DNA of 64,000 bases from NCBI RefSeq assembly GCF_023347255.1, contig NZ_CP094466.1, forward strand, positions 930,001-994,000, given 5' to 3'. This DNA comes from Faecalibacterium sp. I4-3-84 (lineage in GTDB: Bacteria > Bacillota > Clostridia > Oscillospirales > Ruminococcaceae). The notes beneath the pieces are model-generated. The model was not told the origin of the DNA, made no database searches, and saw nothing but the letters and a program-made list of their open reading frames with translations. This document shows, piece by piece, positions 12,544 to 23,253 of this stretch. The translations under genes were made by a program, and so were the position numbers. Positions within the stretch are counted from its first letter, which is position 1; the number at the start of each line of letters is the position of its first letter.

Positions 12544-12606
12544 ACTTCTCGCAGCGTGTGCCGACACACAGCTGCCGCCATAATGGAACCCATGGGATTA
12601 CAACGT

Positions 12607-12680
<74 letters not shown>

Positions 12681-12687
12681 TCTATGT

Positions 12688-12765
12688 GGTGCCCATAGCG
12701 TAGTCGGTTAACGCGCCAGATTGTGGATCTGGAGACCGTGGGTTCGAGTCCCACTGGGCACCCCA
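12688..12765 (+). tRNA. tRNA-His (anticodon GTG)
   Basis: The acceptor includes the extra 5' G (G-1) expected for tRNA-His, paired opposite C73, and the anticodon loop TTGTGGA gives GTG. A 3' CCA appears to be encoded (12763-12765). It shares the tRNA-Arg promoter, seven bases downstream of that gene. Confidence 0.95.
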
Positions 12766-13272: not shown

Positions 13273-14637
13273 TCAGCGCCTCATCTGCTGCAGGATCTGT
13301 GCGATCTCTGCACTGGAATAGCCATCCTGCCGCAGTGCGGTGCTGATGCTGGTATCGCTCTTGCCCTGGCTGCGCATCAGCATGGCCATGTAGGGCACCG
13401 TCACATTCCGGGAGGTGTCACTGCCCAGACGGGTGGCAGTGCCCGTGCTGCGGCTGGCCGTACCGGAGGACGTACTGCCCGTGCCAGTGCCGCCAGTCTT
13501 ACTGCCTGCCGCCGTGCTGCCAGCGCGGCTTGCTTTCTGCGCTGCATTGTACTTTTTCAGGTTCCACTCGCCCAGTGCGATGTTCAGCTTCTGGCTTGTG
13601 ACATCGTTGTTGAATTTCTGCTGGTTGAGTTTGTCCTGATACTCCCGCTCGCTCGTCTCGTTCTCGTAGCGCTGCTGGTTCAGGCTGTCCTGATACTGAC
13701 GCTCCTGCAGCTGCTGGTTCCACTGAGTGTCCGCACGGTCTGCCTCGTACTGACGGTTGCCGGAGTAGATGTTATAGCCGGTATTCAGCAGGCCGCTCAG
13801 CATGGAGCCAACGCCCGTGGTGCCGCTGAGAACGATCTGCACCGCATCGCCCAGCACACCCAGCACGGTCATCACATTGTTGAACACCTGCTGGCGGCGT
13901 GCTGCCTGCTGCTGTTCCTGCGCGGAGTAATAATCGTGCAGGGTGCCCAGCTGGCTCAGATAATCCTGATACTGCCCGTAGTCCTGCGCATAGGCGTTGT
14001 TGTATGCTTCGCCCTTCTGCTGCAGCTGGGTGTAGTAGTCCGAGAGCTTGTTGTTGTACTGCTGCTGGGCATCCTGTTCGCTGTTGTTCAGCTGATCCAG
14101 CTGGCTCACCAGCTCGTTTCCGCCGCTGGTATACGTATCCAGCGCCAGACTGTACAGCGTGGGGATGGCGCTGCTCAGCGCGCCGATCTGCTGCTGATAC
14201 GCCTGCTGGGCGGCGCTCGTGGCATAGCTGGAGCCATAACCGCCGGTCAGGGCTGCAGCCTGCGCCGCAGCATCTGCGCTGGCGTTGTGGGCATTCTGCA
14301 AATAGTTCTGCTCGTACTGGCGGTAGAGCGGGTCCTTGGTGTAGCTGTACTGGAAGCTCTCACGCTGCAGCAGCTGGTTCAAAAGCTGGTCGATCCGCTC
14401 CTGATAGCTGCTCTGATAATCGCCCGGGCGGTTTGTCTGCCACTCCTTCAGCGCATCTGCGGCATCCGTCACGGTCTGGCTGGGCTTGTAGCTGGAATTT
14501 GCCAGTGCGTTTTCCACCTCCGAGCGGCTGTCCAGTCCCGCTGCGGAATAACCGCTCTGCACGGCAGGCTGGCCGCTGCCCTCCGTCTGCGCCTGCACAG
14601 CGGCAAGCGCTTCGTCCTTTTTCTTTCTGTTTGCCAT
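13273..14637 (-). CDS. Phage virion protein, Gln/Ala-rich coiled coil with a hydrophobic segment (putative ejection protein)
   Basis: This 454-residue protein has a charged N-terminus, long Gln/Tyr/Ala-rich helical stretches likely to form coiled coils (about 90-230 and 300-350), and one hydrophobic Gly-rich segment near residues 255-290 (VLGVLGDAVQIVLSG). A Gly/Ser/Thr-rich linker leads to a short conserved-looking tail. Its place after the nozzle gene, plus the membrane-active look, resembles internal or ejection proteins of podoviruses. That role is inference; no catalytic motif is seen. It is the last gene before the island terminator. Confidence 0.6.
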   Translation of the reverse strand: MANRKKKDEALAAVQAQTEGSGQPAVQSGYSAAGLDSRSEVENALANSSYKPSQTVTDAADALKEWQTNRPGDYQSSYQERIDQLLNQLLQRESFQYSYTKDPLYRQYEQNYLQNAHNASADAAAQAAALTGGYGSSYATSAAQQAYQQQIGALSSAIPTLYSLALDTYTSGGNELVSQLDQLNNSEQDAQQQYNNKLSDYYTQLQQKGEAYNNAYAQDYGQYQDYLSQLGTLHDYYSAQEQQQAARRQQVFNNVMTVLGVLGDAVQIVLSGTTGVGSMLSGLLNTGYNIYSGNRQYEADRADTQWNQQLQERQYQDSLNQQRYENETSEREYQDKLNQQKFNNDVTSQKLNIALGEWNLKKYNAAQKASRAGSTAAGSKTGGTGTGSTSSGTASRSTGTATRLGSDTSRNVTVPYMAMLMRSQGKSDTSISTALRQDGYSSAEIAQILQQMRR

Positions 14638-14840: not shown

Positions 14841-16724
14841 TCACACCTCCCCGCCTGCAATGCCGCCCTTGGCAGCGGCCATTGTTTTTGCAATGCTGCG
14901 CAGGGTGATCTGTCCCCTGCCCTTCAGGCGCAGCCGCAGGGTGCCGTGCCTCCGGGGCACGAACGGCAGATCAAAGCTGCGCCGCTTGTCCTGTGCCGTC
15001 AGGCTTGCCACCGTCTCCCATGGGCCGCCGTCATAGCTGGCGGCCACCTCCACCGTACTGCTGCACTCGGCATCCAGCCGCAGCGTCAGTCGGGAAAGAT
15101 ACCGGTCCTCGGCCCCGTCCAGCCCAATGTCACCAGTGGTCAGCTCAAAGTTCAGCTTTTCCTCCACACCGTCGGTGGCCTGCCAGTCCGCTTCGCGGCT
15201 GGGATCTGCGGCCCACAGTGCCTGCCCGTCCCACAGATAAAGCTGTCCGCCGGTGCTGGTCATCTCGTAGGAGCACACGTTTTCTTCGCTCCAGAGCGCG
15301 CGCTCGGTATCGTACACCAGCAGCCTTGCCGTATTTTCGCCTGCCGCCGTGCGGGCCACATGCAGGTAATAGCGGCCATCCAGCGCACTGCCCACCGCGC
15401 TCTGCACATTGGCCAGTCGGCCCGAATCCAACGCGCCGGACACTTTTGTTGGAATGCTGCCGTCCCATGCCATCACACCGTCCGGCGAAAGATAATAGAG
15501 CGTCTCGTTCAGCACACACAGGCTGCGCGCCGCGTTTTTGGCAACGCCCCGGCAGCGCAGCGAGGTGAGCTGAAAATCCGAAGGCTTGGAGCCATAGAGC
15601 TTGTGCAGTGTGTTCTCCTTAAAGAACAGTGCATAGCCCATGCATGTGGCCGCGCCGGTAAACGCACCATCGCTGCCCACCGTCACTGCGTAGCTGTCTG
15701 CCGCAATGCCCCGGTAGGAAAACCAGTTGGTGGGGTCGCCTAAGCGGCAGGCATAGATCACGTTTTCCTTGCTGCTGCAGCCCCATACCCGGTTGTCGCA
15801 CTCGGTAACGTAGTCCAGATCCGGCACGCGGCGTTCCATCCGCACCGGCGTGCTCACCGCAAAGCTGCGTGTCTCCTTGCCGTCCAGGCTGGTCCACTGG
15901 GCGCTCTCGGCGCTCTGCACCAGCGTGCCGTAAACATGATCTCCCTCCGGGCTTACCCGCACGCGCAGCCCGTTTTCCAGCACATCGTAAACTACCAGAT
16001 CCCCGTCCAGCTTTGTCCACATGCCAGCCTGCTGTGCTGCCGTGCCCTGCACGGTCACGGTGTCCCACTGGGCAAACAGCCTCTGCGCGCCCGCCGCTGT
16101 GATGCGGCAGTATTCCAGCGGCACTGCCGTCCAGCTGCCGGAGGATGCGCTGTACTCTTCCAGTGTGCTGGTACTGGCCCATGGGTGCTCCTCGTCTTCC
16201 ACCTTCAAAAAGAGCTGTCCGTCTGCAGGCTTCTCCGGTTCCTCCTTGCCGTAACCGCTCACCTCGTAGGCCTTGCCCGCGGCATCGCAGGGTGCAAACT
16301 GCACGCTCTGTCCCTCTGCCTGCCATACAGCTCCCAGTGCCGAAACACTTCCGTCCGCTGTATCAAAGGCTACCTTGTCCGGGAAGATCAGGATTTTTGT
16401 ACCAATGCCCACCAGTGCCTTTTTGCCGTCGGTCACTGCCTCGGTGCAGGTCACCGGGTTCGCGCCGTCGGCATCCGGCGTGTAGATCAGATCCTTCCCG
16501 CAGACGGTCAGCAGCCCGTTCAGGTGATACATGCCGTTCAGCCCGGTCAACTCCCTCAGCTTGCGGCGCGGCTTGCGGGTGCTCAGCGCCGGGAAATCCC
16601 GGGCAGAAAAATTCACGCCCGCGCTGTACTCTGCTTCCGAGCAGGCATAGGTCTCGTTCAGCCCGCCGAATACCCGCACAAGACTGCGGCTGTTCTGCAG
16701 CTTTGCTCTGTTTGCCAGAACCAT
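14841..16724 (-). CDS. Beta-rich phage protein, probable tail nozzle / tubular protein
   Basis: This 627-residue protein is dominated by short beta-strand repeats, each with aromatic-Gly turns (for example MYHLNGLLTVCGKDLIY, GQLYLWDGQALWAADP), as in beta-propeller nozzle proteins (T7 gp12 / P22 gp10 type). The C-terminal 110 residues look like a separate beta-sandwich. It follows the adaptor gene by 12 bases, the order found in podoviral head-completion modules. Assignment rests on fold impression and synteny, not on a specific motif. Confidence 0.6.
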   Translation of the reverse strand: MVLANRAKLQNSRSLVRVFGGLNETYACSEAEYSAGVNFSARDFPALSTRKPRRKLRELTGLNGMYHLNGLLTVCGKDLIYTPDADGANPVTCTEAVTDGKKALVGIGTKILIFPDKVAFDTADGSVSALGAVWQAEGQSVQFAPCDAAGKAYEVSGYGKEEPEKPADGQLFLKVEDEEHPWASTSTLEEYSASSGSWTAVPLEYCRITAAGAQRLFAQWDTVTVQGTAAQQAGMWTKLDGDLVVYDVLENGLRVRVSPEGDHVYGTLVQSAESAQWTSLDGKETRSFAVSTPVRMERRVPDLDYVTECDNRVWGCSSKENVIYACRLGDPTNWFSYRGIAADSYAVTVGSDGAFTGAATCMGYALFFKENTLHKLYGSKPSDFQLTSLRCRGVAKNAARSLCVLNETLYYLSPDGVMAWDGSIPTKVSGALDSGRLANVQSAVGSALDGRYYLHVARTAAGENTARLLVYDTERALWSEENVCSYEMTSTGGQLYLWDGQALWAADPSREADWQATDGVEEKLNFELTTGDIGLDGAEDRYLSRLTLRLDAECSSTVEVAASYDGGPWETVASLTAQDKRRSFDLPFVPRRHGTLRLRLKGRGQITLRSIAKTMAAAKGGIAGGEV

Positions 16725-16736
16725 GCTCTCACCTCC

Positions 16737-17120
16737 TTACCAGCGCCACTGGGCACCCGTCAGTGTCGGATAGCTGCGCCGCAGCCACGCCGCCAGATCT
16801 GCCAGCAGACTGTTGTACTGGGCCTGCTCCCCGACGTAGCGGTCGGTCTCGCCAAGGGCCGCATCGGTCATGGCACACAGATAATGCGGATACAGCGCAT
16901 CAAAAGGTGCCGGTGCCAGCAGCACATCGTCGTCCTGCAGGCTGTCGTCCCATGCAAGGTCTGCGCCCACATCGTCGTATGCATCTGTGATGCTGTTTTT
17001 AAAAAAGCGTTCCCGCAGCATCGCGTCTGCTTCCTTCAGCCACGCCTGCCGGGTGGCCAACGCAATGCGGCTGCCCGGGCGCAGCTCTTCGGCGCGTTCC
17101 AGCGCCTGTCCTACGGTCAT
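16737..17120 (-). CDS. Phage head-tail adaptor-like protein
   Basis: This 127-residue helical protein (TVGQALERAEELRPGSRI at the start, then a long central helix and Tyr/Trp-rich C-terminus ending TGAQWRW) has the size and helical character of connector/adaptor proteins that dock under the portal. It sits between the capsid block and the nozzle-like gene. A strong AAAAAGGAG site precedes it. Function is by position and size only. Confidence 0.6.
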   Translation of the reverse strand: MTVGQALERAEELRPGSRIALATRQAWLKEADAMLRERFFKNSITDAYDDVGADLAWDDSLQDDDVLLAPAPFDALYPHYLCAMTDAALGETDRYVGEQAQYNSLLADLAAWLRRSYPTLTGAQWRW

Positions 17121-17191: not shown

Positions 17192-17407
17192 TTACTGGGC
17201 GGCGTTCTCTGCCGCCGCAATGCGGGCGGCGGTCAGCTCATCCTGCATCTGGCTGTGCTCCAGCACCTCGGCCACTTCGGGCGGCACTTCCACCTCCACG
17301 CCGCGGCGGATCTTATAGTTCACACCGTTCACGCTGACGAACAGATCGCCCTTGTAGCGGCTGTTATCCTTGAACAGCCGGATGCGCACATTTTTCTTTT
17401 CAGCCAT
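17192..17407 (-). CDS. Small capsid-associated phage protein
   Basis: This 71-residue protein starts with a basic strand region (KKNVRIRLFKDNSRYKGDLFVSVNGVNYKIRRG), a compact beta fold, followed by an acidic helix. It comes 13 bases after the major capsid gene, and similar short proteins commonly follow N4-gp56 capsid genes. A capsid-decoration or head-fibre role is plausible but unproven. Confidence 0.65.
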   Translation of the reverse strand: MAEKKNVRIRLFKDNSRYKGDLFVSVNGVNYKIRRGVEVEVPPEVAEVLEHSQMQDELTAARIAAAENAAQ

Positions 17408-17420
17408 GGCTCACGCCTCC

Positions 17421-18419
17421 TCAGTTTGCGGCAGCGGTAGCAGAATAGCTGGACGCACTCTCAATGCGCACCATGTACTGCTCCACCAAACGCTCTGCCG
17501 CACGCATGCCCTTCCAGCCCACGGAAGCGCGCTGGTTCAGCGGGTCGTCGCCATAGCCCAGCTGCTTGACGATGTGCTCAAGGCCGCCGTCTTCCAGCTC
17601 GGTCACGCCGTAGGCATGGGCACCCAGCACCAGCGTGCCGAATACAGCCAGACCGTCCGGGCAGGTGGAATCCTTCCAGATCTTGGCCTCGCTGGTCTCG
17701 ATGAAGCGGATGTTGCCCAGCTTGCCGATCTCGCCGCGGAACATGGTGTCCGGGTCGGCGTACTTGTGCACCTCAATGAACTCCTTGCTAGTCTTCAGGT
17801 CGTAAGCAGCGTAGGGGTGGATGATGGCAATGTAGCTGTCGCCGATGGGGTCGGCGTTCATCGCGCCCAGCTGTGCCGCCGCCTGAAAGAACAGCTTCGG
17901 GGTCAGGGTGCAGGTCTTGTCCAGTGCCTTGCGGCTGGCAACGGCAGTCTCGGTGCCGTCTGCGGCCAGCTTGGGCGCATAGATCACATTGGTGCCGCCC
18001 GCCAGCACATCGCGGGTAATGCTGTCCATGGTGCGGCCTGCCTGACTTGCCAGCACACGGGTGGCCTGCACCACATTGTTGTCAATGGCGGTCATCTGCA
18101 GCACATCGGTCAGCGGAGTCCAGCCGCCGTACTGGTGCAGATCGCTGGTGATGGTGGTCACATTCAGCGCCTGACCGTTCGGGGTCACGCCCTCGGTCAG
18201 CGGAGTGGATGCCTTGGGCAGGCTGTCGTACTTGCGGAACTCAATGGTCTTGCCGCCGTTCTGGGGCACAGGGTAGTAGTCCGCAAACTGGTCGTGCACC
18301 AGACGCGGCTCTGCCTGATCGATGAGACGCTTCTCGTAGAAGGTCTTCATCTCTTTCGACATGGTAGCGGTGGTGTTCAGGTTTTCCGCAAACAGCTGGA
18401 TGTTGAAATTCTTGTTCAT
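17421..18419 (-). CDS. N4-gp56 family major capsid protein with a Prp-type cleavage motif
   Basis: This 332-residue protein matches the N4-gp56 capsid family: MSKEMKTFYEKRLI, LVHDQFADYYPVPQNGGKTI, FRKYDSLPKASTPLTEGVTP, then the TTITSDLHQYGGWTPLTDVL segment and a C-terminal VKQLGYGDDPLNQRASVGWKG. Residues 6-11 read NIQLFA, the L27-like motif cut by Prp proteases in phage assembly, so the mature N-terminus is predicted at Glu12. Two in-frame ATGs exist; the inner one (18419) has the better spacing to GAAAGGAA. It follows the scaffold gene by 28 bases. Confidence 0.88.
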   Translation of the reverse strand: MNKNFNIQLFAENLNTTATMSKEMKTFYEKRLIDQAEPRLVHDQFADYYPVPQNGGKTIEFRKYDSLPKASTPLTEGVTPNGQALNVTTITSDLHQYGGWTPLTDVLQMTAIDNNVVQATRVLASQAGRTMDSITRDVLAGGTNVIYAPKLAADGTETAVASRKALDKTCTLTPKLFFQAAAQLGAMNADPIGDSYIAIIHPYAAYDLKTSKEFIEVHKYADPDTMFRGEIGKLGNIRFIETSEAKIWKDSTCPDGLAVFGTLVLGAHAYGVTELEDGGLEHIVKQLGYGDDPLNQRASVGWKGMRAAERLVEQYMVRIESASSYSATAAAN

Positions 18420-18447
18420 GCTCATATTCCTTTCTCTTGTAAAATAG

Positions 18448-19395
18448 TCACAATTCGATCTGTGCTCCGTGGAGCACACGGCGTTCCAGTGCTTCTCGCT
18501 GGGCGCGGGTCATGCTGGCTACATCCGGGCGGACGGTAGCCGCGCCGCCGGGCCGGATGCCGTTTTCGGTGGGCCGTGCGGCCCGCTGCTGAATGCGTTC
18601 CACCACGCCCTGCTCCACAGCCTGCGCTGCAGTGCGCAGGTTTTCGTCGTAGTGGGCCAGACGGTACGCATCCCGCACCCTCATGCCGGGCAGCTGCATC
18701 AGGCGGCGCATCTCCGGGCTGCGCAGCTCGTTCTGCAGATCAAAATCCGGCTGGCTGCGGCGCATGGCCGCTTCCTCTGCCGCCCAGCGGGCATGCAGGC
18801 TGTGCACAGCAGCCTGTGTGCTGCGGGCAAAGCTGGACAGCGGCGGCAGTTCCGGGCGCTGCACGGGCAGTTCCTGCCGGGGCTTTTCCGGCTGCAGCTC
18901 TACGGTTTTCTCTGCCGAAGTCTGCGGCACAGCGGGCGCTTTTGCTTCGTCCGGCTTCATGGTGCCGGAGGCCACTGCCTGCCGGGTCTGCGCTTCGCTC
19001 AGGGCAGGGGGAGCGGCTTCTCCCTCTGCAAAGAGCTGCAGATCCATCATGCTCTCCTTTCCTCTGCGGCTCACATCTGCAAAGCGGACATTCTCCGGGT
19101 AGCGTTCGGCCAGCAACACAAAGCAGGCTTTGGCCAGCTCAAAGGCACCGCGCACCCATTCTTCGCAGGGCGCATCCACGCTCACTGCCAGACGCGGGCC
19201 GTCCGGCTCATCAAAGGCTTCGCTGTGGGCGTTCTCTTCCCCGGCCAGCAGGTACACAAGGCCCTGCATCACGGTGCTGGCTCCTGCACAAACGATGTCC
19301 TGCCCGGCAGGCGCATAGCCCGCATGACCGGCAGCTTCCAGCCGGCAGCTCAGCCCGGCGGGAGTATCCATCTCGCTGTAACAAACTTTCATCAT
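18448..19395 (-). CDS. Prp-like cysteine protease fused to phage scaffold protein
   Basis: This 315-residue protein combines two parts. Residues 1-110 are a Prp (YsxB-like) cysteine protease with GHAGY and DIVCAGAS; the dyad His24 and Cys36 has the 12-residue spacing of Prp. Residues 116-315 look like a capsid scaffold: charged, Pro/Gln-rich, helical, with MDLQLFA at 117-123, the Prp cleavage signature. Self-release of the scaffold after Ala123 is predicted. The ATG at 19395 has AGGAGGTGA upstream; a second start at 19047 could make scaffold alone. Portal lies upstream, capsid downstream. Confidence 0.85.
   Translation of the reverse strand: MMKVCYSEMDTPAGLSCRLEAAGHAGYAPAGQDIVCAGASTVMQGLVYLLAGEENAHSEAFDEPDGPRLAVSVDAPCEEWVRGAFELAKACFVLLAERYPENVRFADVSRRGKESMMDLQLFAEGEAAPPALSEAQTRQAVASGTMKPDEAKAPAVPQTSAEKTVELQPEKPRQELPVQRPELPPLSSFARSTQAAVHSLHARWAAEEAAMRRSQPDFDLQNELRSPEMRRLMQLPGMRVRDAYRLAHYDENLRTAAQAVEQGVVERIQQRAARPTENGIRPGGAATVRPDVASMTRAQREALERRVLHGAQIEL
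19045..19060 (-). promoter_or_regulatory. Internal ribosome site and start codons for a scaffold-only product
   Basis: Within the fusion gene the - strand has AAAGGAGAGC immediately before ATGATG (19050 and 19047). The second ATG has about six bases of spacing. It would begin translation exactly at MDLQLFA, giving about 199 residues. Confidence 0.6.
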
Positions 19396-19411: not shown

Positions 19412-21226
19412 TTAATGGATGTCCATGGCACGTGCAGCGGCGGCCACCGGCAGGGCATTGCCAAGGCCCGCCAGCTTTACCGCCTGCCCGTCCTTCTGCA
19501 CAGACGCACCGCCTGCACTGCGGGCCGGTTCGTCAGGCCCGGTGCCCTGCTGGGCGATCACCGCCGCCATCTGTGCCATCTGCTGCTGCATCCGGGCCAG
19601 CTGCTGGGCAAGGGTGCCGTTCTGCCGCACCCTCTGGCGCACCTTCTCAATGCCTTCAAAATCCATCATTTCCAGTGCCGCAAGGGCGGCATCGGCATTT
19701 TCCGGCTTGAAAAATCCCAGCTGATAGCACTCCTTGGCCGTCTCGTTCTGGGAAAGGCGGCTGAAGGTGCTCTTCTTGGCGGCGCTCACCACGATGTCAA
19801 AGATCGGCTCCCGGCTGCCCAGTTCCACGCCGCCCACGCTGCCGCCGGGTACCGCCCGCAGCGCCTGCGCCGAGAAGGGCACGAACCGGCTCTCGCCGCT
19901 TTCGCCCACGATGCGGAACACCCGCTGCTCGTCGTAGAACTGGCGCATCAGCTCGATGATGAGATAGCACTGCTTTGCAAAAGCACGGTAGGCGCTCTTG
20001 AGCATATCGCGGCTGAGTTTGCTGCCTGCCTCCTGCAAGGCCGCAATGGCGCTGGCTGCGGTCACACCTCCGGCAGTGCCGCCCTGCGTCATGTCCCGGT
20101 TGCCGCTGATCTCCTTCAGCTCTTCAATGCGGCTCTGGCGGTAGCTCAGGCTGTTGCCCTGCAGGCCCGCCGTCTGCAGCGGACGGAAACTGTCGTCGTT
20201 GAGCCGTCCCACCACATGCACGATGTCCCGGCTGAAATCGGCCAGCTCTTCCTCGTTGACCCCTGCCGTGTCGCTGAGCACATACCGCTGCTTTGCACTC
20301 AGCAGCACGTTCTCGTCCATGGCATGGTTCATCTTGTCAATGGCCGTCTGGCAGTCCTTCATCACATCGATGTAGCCAAAGCCCGCCGGGCTGTCCTCCT
20401 CCACGAACAGCGGGTCAAATACAAAGGGGTACTGCCCGTGGTCGTACAGGCCGCTTTCTGCCAGCGCCGAGTCGTTCTGGCTGGCGTACAGCACCACGCC
20501 GTTGCAGAACTTGCAGTAGTGCAGCACCATGCGCCCCGTTTCATCCGGGCGCTTGTAGTACCAGTCCACCACCACGCTCTTGGAGCTGGTGTCCTGCCCT
20601 TCATCGTGGATGTACCGGGGCACGTCCAGCACGCTGGCGGTGTGTCCTGCCAGCTGCGGGTACTGCGCGCACAGCCGGGCCGTGTCCTCAAGGCTCAGGC
20701 TGAAAAAGTCCGGCGATGCCTGAATATCCGCCACGCCCGGCTCCCAGTAGAGCATCAGCAGGTTCACGCTGCGCACCGCAATGTCGCCAATTCCGCCGCG
20801 CATTGCAGGGTCCCAGAAGATGCCGGTCACGCCGGTGCCCTGTTTGAGCTTGCGCCACCAGCAGTCGCTGTACACCTGCTCGTAGTCGGCCTGTTCCAGC
20901 ACCACCGGCAAAACGCTGGAAAGTGCCCGTGCGGTGTCCTCGTCATCTGCCTCTCGGGGCAGCACGTTCGGTTCCGGGTAGTTGTCCATGGCATCGGCGT
21001 GCTTGTTGGCAATGCTGTTGAACAGCCACCCGCTGGAAGGCTGAGCCTTGCCGGGCATCATGGGGTTCTGGTAGTTCTTCCAGTGGCCCATGCGGAACCA
21101 CAGCTCGTTATCCACAATGCGCTTGTCCAGCGCAGCCTTGCCCGCCTTGTACCGCTGCAAGGTCTGCATGGCCTCGGCCACCTGTGCTTCACCCACGGGC
21201 AAAGCTTCGTTCTCGTAATCGTCCAT
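19412..21226 (-). CDS. Phage portal protein
   Basis: This 604-residue protein lies directly after the terminase large subunit and before the protease-scaffold gene, the standard portal position. It shows portal-like features: an N-terminal helical wing (YKAGKAALDKRIVDNELWF), SIANKHADAMDNYPEPNVLPRE, a central WDPAMRGG and beta-rich region, and C-terminal Gln/Met-rich helices with a coiled-coil (LARMQQQMAQMAAVIAQQ). It would form the dodecameric vertex through which DNA is pumped. The large size suggests a podoviral-type (P22/N4-like) portal. The frame is intact. Confidence 0.8.
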   Translation of the reverse strand: MDDYENEALPVGEAQVAEAMQTLQRYKAGKAALDKRIVDNELWFRMGHWKNYQNPMMPGKAQPSSGWLFNSIANKHADAMDNYPEPNVLPREADDEDTARALSSVLPVVLEQADYEQVYSDCWWRKLKQGTGVTGIFWDPAMRGGIGDIAVRSVNLLMLYWEPGVADIQASPDFFSLSLEDTARLCAQYPQLAGHTASVLDVPRYIHDEGQDTSSKSVVVDWYYKRPDETGRMVLHYCKFCNGVVLYASQNDSALAESGLYDHGQYPFVFDPLFVEEDSPAGFGYIDVMKDCQTAIDKMNHAMDENVLLSAKQRYVLSDTAGVNEEELADFSRDIVHVVGRLNDDSFRPLQTAGLQGNSLSYRQSRIEELKEISGNRDMTQGGTAGGVTAASAIAALQEAGSKLSRDMLKSAYRAFAKQCYLIIELMRQFYDEQRVFRIVGESGESRFVPFSAQALRAVPGGSVGGVELGSREPIFDIVVSAAKKSTFSRLSQNETAKECYQLGFFKPENADAALAALEMMDFEGIEKVRQRVRQNGTLAQQLARMQQQMAQMAAVIAQQGTGPDEPARSAGGASVQKDGQAVKLAGLGNALPVAAAARAMDIH

Positions 21227-21238
21227 TGCGTTTCTCCT

Positions 21239-22687
21239 TTAAATTCTGTAAAATCTTGCCCGCTTGTGCAGGTTCAGCGGGTCGTCGGGCATGGGCGGCG
21301 CAGCACAGCGCACCGGCGGGCTGATAGGGTTCTCCATCAGCACATAGCGGCACTCGTCGTAAATGTGATCCTCCTGCCGGGTGTCGATGTCCTCCACGTT
21401 GCTTTCGTCGTACACAAGGTTCGGGATCGTGCGGATAAAGTGCTTGCAGGTATTGAACACCTGAAACATCGGCCTGCCGTCCGCATCAAAATTCAGCCGG
21501 TAGTGGAACTGCATCTTGCCCGCAAGCCGGGTGTTGTCGCCGGGGGACCAGCGCAGGAAGTTCGGGCTGCGCTCCATCATAGCGGCAATGCTTTCGCCGC
21601 GGCTCTCATCAAAGATGGCCGGATCGGCAATGCCGTGGATCACCCTGCCGCGCAAAAGCGGGTCGTTCTGCTCTGCCTCCCGGATGCGCCGGGCCTGTTC
21701 CACCGGGTCGATGCGCAGGCCCTCGTTCGGCCTGCCGGTGCAGCCGTACAGCTCCTTGATGCGGTACAGCCGCCCCTCCTCGTCCGCTGCGTACCACCCC
21801 ACCGAGAACGGCTTGGAAAAGCCAAAGTCGAACCCGCGGTAGATCTGCCAGTGCTTCGGGATGGTGAACGGTGCGATCACATGGGTCCAGCGCTGGTCTT
21901 CGTAGCGGGCCGGGTCGTTGCGCCATTCGGTAAACACCTGCCCGGAAAAGCTGTCCCAGCTGCCGTAGAGCAGCGCCTGCTTTTCTGCTTCCGGCATACT
22001 GGCAAGGCTTGCAAGGTAGCCGGGGTCGTTTGCCAGCAGGGCGGGGTTATCAAAAATGCTGGAAGGGATGAACACCCGCGCCCGCTGCAGCTTCTGTTCG
22101 GTGCCGTCCGGCAGCTTTACCGTGTATTCTTCGGTGATAGGCGTTCCGGGCGGTGCGGGCGTGATGAACCGTGCCTTCACCCACCCGTGGCCGATGCCGC
22201 CGGGATTCGTGGTGGCTCGCATGTACACCCGGGTGCCCGGGCCGGTGGGACGGTTGCGGCTCATCATGTAGCTGTACTCTTCCCATTCAAAGTGGGTCAG
22301 CTCGTCAAAGCCGATAAAATCGAAGGCCTTGCCCTGATAATTGGTACGATCCTTGGTGTACTGCATGGAGCCAAAGTAAATTTTTGCCCCGCTGGGGAAG
22401 TTCCACACATGGGCCGTGGCGTTGTACTGTGCCTGCGGGAACGCCCTGTGGTAGTACACCTGGCTCTTGTCCACCAGATCGGAAAGCTGCGGGTAGGTCT
22501 TGCGCAGGATCAGCGCCCGGTAGTGTGGAATGTGCACCTGCCGCAGCGCTTCGATCACCAGCGCGTCGCTCTTGCCGCCGCCTGCTGCACCGCCGTACAG
22601 CGCTTCCGGTTCCGGGCGGCTCATAAATTCGGCCTGCCGCGGCTGGGGCCGCCAGACCACCGGCACTCTTGCTTGTACAATGCTCAT
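21239..22687 (-). CDS. terL: Phage terminase large subunit
   Basis: This 482-residue packaging motor has Walker A GGAAGGGKS near residue 32, Walker B FDFIGFDE near 120, coupling TNPGG, and the RNase H-like nuclease with GFDFGFSKPF near 290 and a second acidic site at GIADPA. All key residues are present, so an active ATPase-nuclease is expected. Start at ATG 22687 (GGTGGAGGAAG upstream) overlaps the previous gene by ATGA, so the two are translationally coupled. It packages DNA into the capsid encoded downstream. Confidence 0.92.
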   Translation of the reverse strand: MSIVQARVPVVWRPQPRQAEFMSRPEPEALYGGAAGGGKSDALVIEALRQVHIPHYRALILRKTYPQLSDLVDKSQVYYHRAFPQAQYNATAHVWNFPSGAKIYFGSMQYTKDRTNYQGKAFDFIGFDELTHFEWEEYSYMMSRNRPTGPGTRVYMRATTNPGGIGHGWVKARFITPAPPGTPITEEYTVKLPDGTEQKLQRARVFIPSSIFDNPALLANDPGYLASLASMPEAEKQALLYGSWDSFSGQVFTEWRNDPARYEDQRWTHVIAPFTIPKHWQIYRGFDFGFSKPFSVGWYAADEEGRLYRIKELYGCTGRPNEGLRIDPVEQARRIREAEQNDPLLRGRVIHGIADPAIFDESRGESIAAMMERSPNFLRWSPGDNTRLAGKMQFHYRLNFDADGRPMFQVFNTCKHFIRTIPNLVYDESNVEDIDTRQEDHIYDECRYVLMENPISPPVRCAAPPMPDDPLNLHKRARFYRI

Positions 22688-22965
22688 GGTTCTTCCTCCA
22701 CCGTCGGCAGCAGCACCACGCCGCACTCCGCTCCTTCTGCCTGTGCCCCCTGATCGTTCAGGATCTTGGCTACACCGGCCAGATCCTTGAGCACCGCCGT
22801 GGCCTCCTTGAGGTCTTTCATGGTGCCTGCTCCCGATGCGCCTTCCTTTTTTGCCGCCTTCTGCCGGGCATTCAGTTCCCGCACCTGCTGTGCCAGCAGG
22901 GTGCTCAGGGTGTCCGTGGCTCGGCTCAGGCTGGCCAGCCCTCTGGCCTGTTTTGTCTGCCCCAT
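22684..22965 (-). CDS. Small phage protein in the terminase small-subunit position
   Basis: This 93-residue helical protein (MGQTKQARGLASLSRATD, then a long helix with VRELNARQKAAKKEG) overlaps terL by four bases. Its position, size and basic N-terminal half fit a terminase small subunit or packaging chaperone, but no helix-turn-helix is clear. The AAAGGAG ribosome site is rather far (about 14 bases) from the ATG, so a different or non-ATG start upstream is possible. Confidence 0.55.
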   Translation of the reverse strand: MGQTKQARGLASLSRATDTLSTLLAQQVRELNARQKAAKKEGASGAGTMKDLKEATAVLKDLAGVAKILNDQGAQAEGAECGVVLLPTVEEEP

Positions 22966-23253
22966 GGTGTTGGGTATCAGCTCCTTTCCGCCCTGGTGTG
23001 CTGGGCTATGGCAAAAGGATACCACTGGTGCTGCTTTCCCAACAGTGTGCACTTTTACAGGGCCATAACGTATATTTTGAATTTAAAAATCCGATTCGTA
23101 TACTTTTATTCCTTGTAATTCATCGCTGTTTCGTATCTTTTCAAAAGCAGTGTTTTTTCTCCATCAAAATTTGTGGCAGACCCGCAGAAAACCTTCAAAG
23201 TCATACTCATTTGCGATTTTTGGACAGAAAATGAAAAAAGTGTGTTTATTCTG
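22966..23253. other. Gene-free spacer upstream of the virion island
   Basis: About 290 bases of AT-richer sequence without a convincing ORF. It must carry the leftward promoter of the island; TATACG boxes appear on the - strand near 23065 and 23100 but without good -35 partners. No copy of the tRNA-His 3' end is found here, so no attachment-site pair with 12742-12764. Confidence 0.5.

Follow-up and report, generated by a model that had tools for sequence, protein, structure and literature searches.

The gene analyzed here encodes a Prp protease domain and a scaffold-like part in a single chain, and we consider it most probably to be the self-processing protease-scaffold of the capsids of the gene transfer agent (GTA) FpGTA I, with a layout like that of herpesvirus UL26 and with cleavage predicted at the domain junction. 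It is located in a 64,000-nucleotide stretch of the genome of Faecalibacterium sp. I4-3-84 (contig NZ_CP094466.1, positions 930,001 to 994,000), hereafter the window. The first-pass annotation of this DNA had described an element with a phage capsid module and a Prp fused to its own substrate. Of that interpretation, the joining of Prp and scaffold in cis and the independence from a host enzyme stand, and the mobile phage module and the cut after Ala123 do not. The coordinates of all features are presented in Table 1.

Table 1. Features of the Prp-scaffold gene and of its operon (window coordinates; a slash in a motif marks the predicted scissile bond)
Feature	Position	Strand	Evidence and remarks
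Prp-scaffold fusion gene	18448..19395	-	single open frame, 315 aa; homologous intact fusions elsewhere in the genus
Prp protease domain, residues 1-110	19066..19395	-	Pfam PF04327, Foldseek, invariant alignment columns, residue roles after PMC9405229
Catalytic codons	His24, 19324-19326; Cys36, 19288-19290	-	D33 and S40 likewise invariant
Possible internal start ATG ATG (codons 116, 117)	19045..19064	-	Shine-Dalgarno-like GAGGAAAGGAGAGC; Met116 in 28/28; Shine-Dalgarno strength not conserved
Prp-type site LQLF/A, residues 119-123, domain junction	19027..19041	-	conservation in 28 fusions; low-confidence stretch 119-127 of the model
Scaffold-like part, residues 124-315	18451..19026	-	variable spacer rich in Pro and Glu, then a C-terminal half that is conserved and helical; PHROG 13908, alignment, model
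N4-gp56 major capsid protein	17421..18425	-	TIGR04387, 316 bits; IQLF/A site at 18387-18401, motif in 32/32
Portal protein, P22 type	19412..21226	-	PF16510, 121 bits
Terminase large subunit	21239..22726	-	PF03237; present in 31/31 genus genomes
Small ORF where the published possible TerS sits	22684..23052	-	tblastn in 20/25 genome loci; role from PMC12946183
71 aa operon protein, function unknown	17192..17407	-	PHROG 15239
127 aa operon protein, function unknown	16737..17120	-	PHROG 12105
627 aa virion protein	14841..16724	-	PHROG 511 'internal virion protein', 162.7 bits
454 aa protein, final operon gene	13273..14637	-	syntenic in relatives; Pfam RepB_primase_C below cut-off only

A Prp domain and a scaffold-like part in one frame

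The fusion gene is read on the minus strand, from 19395 down to 18448, and starts with an ATG that has a good Shine-Dalgarno sequence of its own. The ORF given in the first-pass annotation, which did not name the strand, was borne out, with Prp at the N-terminus and a scaffold-like remainder. Residues 1-110 match the Pfam profile Peptidase_Prp (PF04327, MEROPS C108) with 41.5 bits against a cut-off of 27, and the catalytic dyad proposed for this region was found at exactly the positions proposed, His24 and Cys36. The comparison of a structure prediction with Prp, which had been suggested as a check, was performed with Foldseek: the AlphaFold model had 14 PDB matches with E <= 0.001, every one a Prp structure (TMt 0.71-0.81; names after PMC9405229), among them S. 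aureus Prp with a bound substrate or covalent ligand. The model, built from 28 sequences, has a mean pLDDT of 76.7 and a pTM of 0.40. Its N-terminal domain is confident and its C-terminal half helical, the low-confidence stretches cover residues 119-127, 153-180, and 278-289, and, at this pTM, the mutual placement of the two halves is not predicted by the model.

It should be stressed that G23, H24, D33, C36, and S40 are invariant among the 28 fused proteins compared (24 from genomes of the genus, second copies from genomes G007 and G041, and the proteins of viral contigs L032 and L033). Four of these residues, H24, D33, C36, and S40, match, with an offset of two, H22, D31, C34, and S38 of S. 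aureus Prp, which are active or essential there (PMC9405229). The protein does not group with the ribosomal-processing Prps, as the best NCBIfam equivalog reached 27.7 bits against a cut-off of 135 and the L27 protein of the host is short.

The remainder of the chain, for which a scaffold-like character and an MDLQLFA start had been noted, begins at the double Met 116/117 (MMDLQLFA). It matches PHROG 13908 and, weakly, PHROG 14606, both of 'unknown function', and among its matches, limited to such PHROGs, no recognised phage scaffold family was found. Its position, its helical make-up, and the operon-level label used in the FpGTA paper point to a scaffold role. In eight pairs, dN/dS was 0.02-0.24 for the Prp part, 0.10-0.32 for the scaffold part, and 0.01-0.12 for the capsid protein, which shows purifying selection on both halves of the fusion. 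The claimed joining in cis of Prp to a site-bearing scaffold-like part is supported at the level of sequence and fold, and the protease looks catalytically intact.

Predicted cleavage sites and a possible nested start

At the junction site of the 28 fusions, P3 is Q and P1 is F in all proteins, and P1' is A in 27 (one A to G); the pattern that gathered the fusions itself contained the site, and none of the 28 loci was lost to it. In the capsid proteins, none of these three positions varies (Q at P3, F at P1, and A at P1' in 32/32), and the matching site claimed for the downstream capsid protein of the window was confirmed, as this protein begins with MSMNKNFNIQLFA. Since Prp cuts between F and A (PMC5744158), the predicted bond is F122/A123, and the previously proposed cut after Ala123 is off by one residue.

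The motif [LMI]Qx[FL][AG] is present in exactly two of the nine proteins of the window operon, i.e., the fusion and the capsid protein. Moreover, a genome-wide search with a DNA pattern for [ND][LIM]QxFA, which excludes the TTR codons of Leu, gave five matches (one for the reversed control). Two of them are the fusion and the capsid protein, while the other three fall at residue 500 of a 558-codon, residue 245 of a 428-codon, and residue 45 of a 111-codon stop-to-stop frame and, on visual inspection, were not taken for gene starts.

The double Met adjacent to the site raises an explanation to which we give somewhat less than an even chance, namely a nested gene in the UL26/UL26.5 style, in which a minor Prp-scaffold fusion would be accompanied by bulk scaffold made from Met116 and trimmed in trans by Prp. 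Met occupies P7 in 28/28 fusions, whereas P7 of the capsid proteins is free (11 residue types, Met in 3/32). In the window, the internal Shine-Dalgarno reaches -13.4 kcal/mol, resembling the true start (-11.7), and in 24 of the 28 fusions the anti-Shine-Dalgarno pairing of the internal ATG is above the mean of the other in-frame ATGs (weaker in three, with one tie; compared by eye). However, the internal Shine-Dalgarno is no better than in synonymous codon shuffles (mean z -0.17; 13/28 below the shuffle mean), and the relatives G022, G003, G006, and G042 have a weak one (about -3). Furthermore, the fused proteins of viral contigs L153, L154, L155, and L162, which lie outside the 28, are encoded without a linker ATG, with GTG in L153 and L155.

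The operon, FpGTA I and the distribution of the fusion

Judged by genus, gene order, and shared strains, the window operon matches FpGTA I (Borodovich et al. 2026, PMC12946183). It shares with the latter the genus and the gene content, the order of a possible TerS, TerL, portal, scaffold, and major capsid protein (MCP), and the lack of replication and integrase genes, and our loci include those of four carrier strains listed in that paper (ATCC 27768, APC923/51-1, APC922/41-1, and APC923/61-1). FpGTA I, published in January 2026, forms capsids of ~40 nm with 8.4-8.9 kb of packaged host DNA, the capsid and portal proteins were detected by proteomics, and the operon label includes a head scaffolding protein (PMC12946183). 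The numbering of the published capsid and portal accessions (RCH50849.1 and RCH50851.1) would accommodate a single protein between the two, in agreement with one fused CDS. According to its authors, FpGTA is the first GTA from the human gut microbiome, and no earlier GTA has podovirus-like morphology; random packaging of host DNA is known from the same source, which does not show DNA delivery. The terms 'protease', 'Prp', 'peptidase', 'cleav', and 'fusion' have no occurrences in its main text, and what is added here is the Prp domain, the cleavage sites, and the observation that the host lacks both a Prp elsewhere and a long L27.

Among the operon proteins scanned, no integrase, replication, or lysis family was found above cut-off, and the small ORF at the TerS position gave no family match in profile searches. 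Just beyond the end of the operon, genes for tRNA-Arg and tRNA-His are localized (window 12606-12765). They are followed by PAP2-DUF1643, as in 7 of 25 genome loci. DUF1643, which lies near the window operon, is found at most 12 kb from TerL in 13 of the 31 genomes of the genus, and elsewhere other surroundings or contig ends are encountered.

The rpoB tree and the tree of TerL, portal, and MCP have 15 of 21 splits in common (24 genomes; 300 shuffles gave a mean of 0.27 and a maximum of 2), and the Mantel r between rpoB and operon distances is 0.85-0.88 (23 genomes). This comparison leaves out G010 (no rpoB frame found), G008 (rpoB fragment), G023 (contig without the capsid gene), and G016, G018, G024, and G002 (no rpoB match), and G012 is a bin that contains rpoB twice, one copy being used in the host tree. 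As both trees largely agree, the operon descends mainly with its host, so what had been taken for a phage capsid module is not a mobile one and matches the mainly vertically inherited FpGTA I.

In the 31 genomes of the genus, Prp and scaffold form an intact fusion in 24 (the window included), are separate neighbouring genes in five (G009, G010, G017, G018, and G044), are frame-broken in G045, and are unreadable in G023, where the contig ends. The other 23 fusions show 48-87% protein identity to the window protein, and since the fused frame is intact in 24/31 genomes, the fusion is more than chance. An artefact by frame-shift or lost stop was considered and is disfavoured by the same 24 genomes. 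In named genomes, the fusion has 20 matches that cover its whole or nearly whole length, all of them from Faecalibacterium, and no full-length match was found in 16 genomes of other genera.

In G045, a genome of the same species (L064), an insertion of 141 nt, which contains a second LQLFA, and the deletion of a single base leave the scaffold out of frame with Prp, which means either that the fusion may be dispensable or that the assembly contains an error. A related second site, LQMFA, is present in frame in viral contig L033. Second, diverged fused copies occur in G007 and G041. The one in G041 (L068, L289, and L290; contig C11 near 609 kb) is localized beside a 3375 aa ORF, an HTH gene, and a phage holin and probably sits in a prophage; among the 10 proteins scanned around it there is no integrase.

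Three of the five separate-gene genomes are present in the rpoB and operon trees and form the deepest branch in both (midpoint-rooted). In the midpoint-rooted capsid-protein tree, G018 joins these three, and G010 falls outside, among viral contigs, so the G010 locus may be something else. The fused viral contigs are placed outside both GTA groups of this tree (supports not examined), and it follows that the fusion was either ancestral and then lost, or gained more than once. The separate scaffolds of G017, G009, and G044 (L057, L058, and L067) have, unlike the fused ones, a longer N-terminus (...LPALC.AKRC...) before LQLFG or LQQFA.

This distribution bears on the view that two separate functional genes share a frame through the meaningless loss of a stop, the working form being two proteins. 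We regard it as unlikely: separate genes do occur in five genomes of the genus and in many viral contigs, and G045 breaks the frame, but the frame is kept in 24 genomes, 23 of them at the above-mentioned identity of 48-87%, and fusions without a linker ATG exist in viral contigs. It is very improbable that the Prp domain is an inactive leftover, or a chaperone that merely binds the LQLFA segment, as its catalytic and essential residues are invariant in the 28 fusions, its dN/dS is low, and the site on either partner never varies at P3 Q and P1 F and hardly at P1' A. What speaks for such inactivity is a Prp score of 44 bits, compared with 70-91 for the better chromosomal Prps, and the dispensability of Prp cleavage in phage 80alpha (PMC5744158).

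Prp apart from the ribosome and related capsid systems

PF04327 was found in 30 of the 31 genus genomes, in 32 places, every one of them within such a module; the control genome, that of laboratory E. coli, gave no match to it. A second Prp was not found elsewhere in the host genome, in which rplU and rpmA are adjacent with no prp in between. The independence from a host enzyme, claimed in the first-pass annotation, is therefore supported at the sequence level. In the genus, L27 starts with MAHKKG, without the extension removed by Prp, in 24/24 readable of 27 loci. Among other genera of the family, PF04327 was detected in 11 of 12 genomes, beside L27 in all 11 (the twelfth gave neither), and L27 carries an [LM]Q[FH]FA extension in 8/8 readable of 11 loci. 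At the level of the order, PF04327 is present in 113 of 147 sampled genomes, which indicates that the loss of Prp is not rare. The simplest interpretation is a loss of the chromosomal Prp and of its ribosomal substrate in the Faecalibacterium line, with the capsid Prp kept. That the fused enzyme has a ribosomal role, standing in for the lost chromosomal Prp on L27, is hardly credible: it is the sole Prp found in the host, but with L27 short in all the readable genus loci there is nothing for Prp to cut there.

Capture of a host Prp is disfavoured by a Prp-domain tree, rough and weak (7 of 30 fetched chromosomal Prps passed the pattern), in which the fused GTA Prps are closest to their fused phage counterparts and most distant from the chromosomal enzymes; the mean distances are 2.5 to phage fused, 3.0 to separate GTA, 3.8 to phage separate, and 5.2 to chromosomal Prps. 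Outside the GTAs, the separate GTA Prps have the separate phage Prps L158 and L189 as their closest neighbours, so an exchange of the Prp gene is possible.

For the survey of viral contigs, the best 80 of 110 confirmed Prp loci (64 distinct) were used, which were drawn by similarity to the query and come from related contigs. The 64 distinct loci comprise 16 fused forms, 25 separate Prps with a downstream gene that starts with a site, 20 separate ones without, and three contig ends. The 20 are an upper bound, as the motif is present downstream in some (e.g., L157 and L209), and the share of 16 fused forms is not a frequency. About half of these 16 are Faecalibacterium GTA-like. Within the best 80 of 110, an N-terminal motif is carried by 44/70 downstream ORFs versus 14/326 others (Fisher p = 6e-28, a guide only, given the kinship of the contigs and their selection by similarity). 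With a stricter neighbourhood filter, which drops 33 of these 80 loci, the counts are 24/48 versus 7/192. Hence, the fusion, first noticed in the window operon, is not unique to it, being present also in viral contigs and a probable prophage, and a separate phage Prp upstream of scaffold and capsid genes is common.

Among 50,697 phage records, the fusion matched only faecal 'Bacteriophage sp.' records without annotation (10 records, five at >=80% cover), the L155 fusion gave eight matches (none at 80% cover), and no named phage isolate with the fusion was found. MT836324.1, which is unannotated, MT836159.1, and the eight other faecal records match all or part of the fusion, and they may be GTA operons deposited as phage genomes. 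The seven BFVD matches with E <= 0.001 are each 93-132 aa long and are thus separate Prp proteins. A separate Prp is encoded by Enterococcus phage phiFL3A (gp45), Lactococcus phage PLgT-1 (gp27), Acutalibacter phage Fontainebleau, and Dorea phage DO134P1. As in the window, it precedes scaffold and capsid genes whose products start with LQxF-type motifs (with the variants LQLFD in Fontainebleau and LQVFT in the capsid-position gene of DO134P1), but it is a gene of its own, and in phiFL3A and PLgT-1 at least one gene lies in between. The Prps of isolated phages are annotated as 'peptidase', as 'ribosomal protein', or not at all; phiFL3A gp45 and PLgT-1 gp27 carry 'ribosomal protein' or 'peptidase' labels, and 'candidate capsid-maturation Prp' may be apt. 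A phage protease is discussed in connection with Prp in PMC10846135, the accessible part of which names no substrate for it. In the literature searched, with most subscription journals outside its scope, no Prp-scaffold fusion was found.

In phage lambda, the protease and the scaffold (gpC/Nu3) are nested in one reading frame, and the gpC protease family is unrelated to Prp. An interaction of C with Nu3 was described (PMC3224144). The protease fold and residues and the LQxF/A sites on both scaffold and capsid are shared with the system of S. aureus host Prp and phage 80alpha (PMC9405229, PMC5744158), where, in contrast, Prp is a separate host enzyme with L27 as a further substrate; the Prp described here is joined to the scaffold, and the search of the host genome yielded no other copy. 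In 80alpha, cutting of capsid or scaffold by host Prp is not needed for viability, although the scaffold N-terminus is (PMC5744158), which implies that cleavage here may tune rather than enable assembly. Herpesvirus UL26 likewise has an N-terminal protease, a junction cut site, and a C-terminal scaffold from which the protease is cut, with a scaffold-only form from an overlapping gene, UL26.5 (PMC12474303), that may have a counterpart here. The differences are that the herpesvirus enzyme is a serine protease of another family (PMC4498786) and that its overlapping scaffold gene is established, whereas ours is possible. The capsid protease of phage Cp-1 belongs to the same clan (CR) and strips an N-terminal extension from the capsid protein, but the extension has ~40 residues, and a scaffold fusion is not mentioned in the accessible part of PMC9405229.

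For the self-processing protease-scaffold, which is the reading we prefer, we infer an intact chain, its cleavage, the timing of the latter, and the scaffold role as follows. The fusion would be translated as a single chain, and its scaffold half would co-assemble with the capsid protein, carrying the tethered Prp to the growing procapsid, so that each fused scaffold delivers one protease that releases itself. Prp would cut LQLF/A, which separates its domain from the scaffold, within the same chain or in a neighbouring one, and would also cut the capsid protein N-terminus at the matching IQLF/A. These cuts would free the scaffold for exit and mature the ~40 nm shell before the terminase fills it with host DNA.

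The GTA itself, Prp, the cutting of phage proteins by host Prp, and herpesvirus protease-scaffold fusions were already known. As far as our searches reach, three things are new, namely the Prp-scaffold fusion, its occurrence in a GTA, and the fact that the genus with this fusion lacks the ribosomal Prp system. More tentatively, Prp and the LQxFA motif may have left the ribosome altogether in Faecalibacterium, the sole remaining Prp being the self-releasing protease-scaffold of a domesticated particle, with a nested scaffold start and with the chromosomal Prp and the L27 extension gone; this fuller picture is possible, and we give it somewhat less than an even chance. If true, the UL26/UL26.5 design would have arisen once more, independently and around an unrelated protease, in a gene transfer agent of Gram-positive bacteria. 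The fusion supplies a candidate maturation enzyme for FpGTA, with Cys36 as a single testable residue. Furthermore, Prp is an antibiotic target and known for its part in ribosome maturation, and the fusion suggests that capsid processing alone can be enough for its retention. A wider pattern is also indicated, in which phages encode Prp near site-bearing scaffold and capsid proteins.
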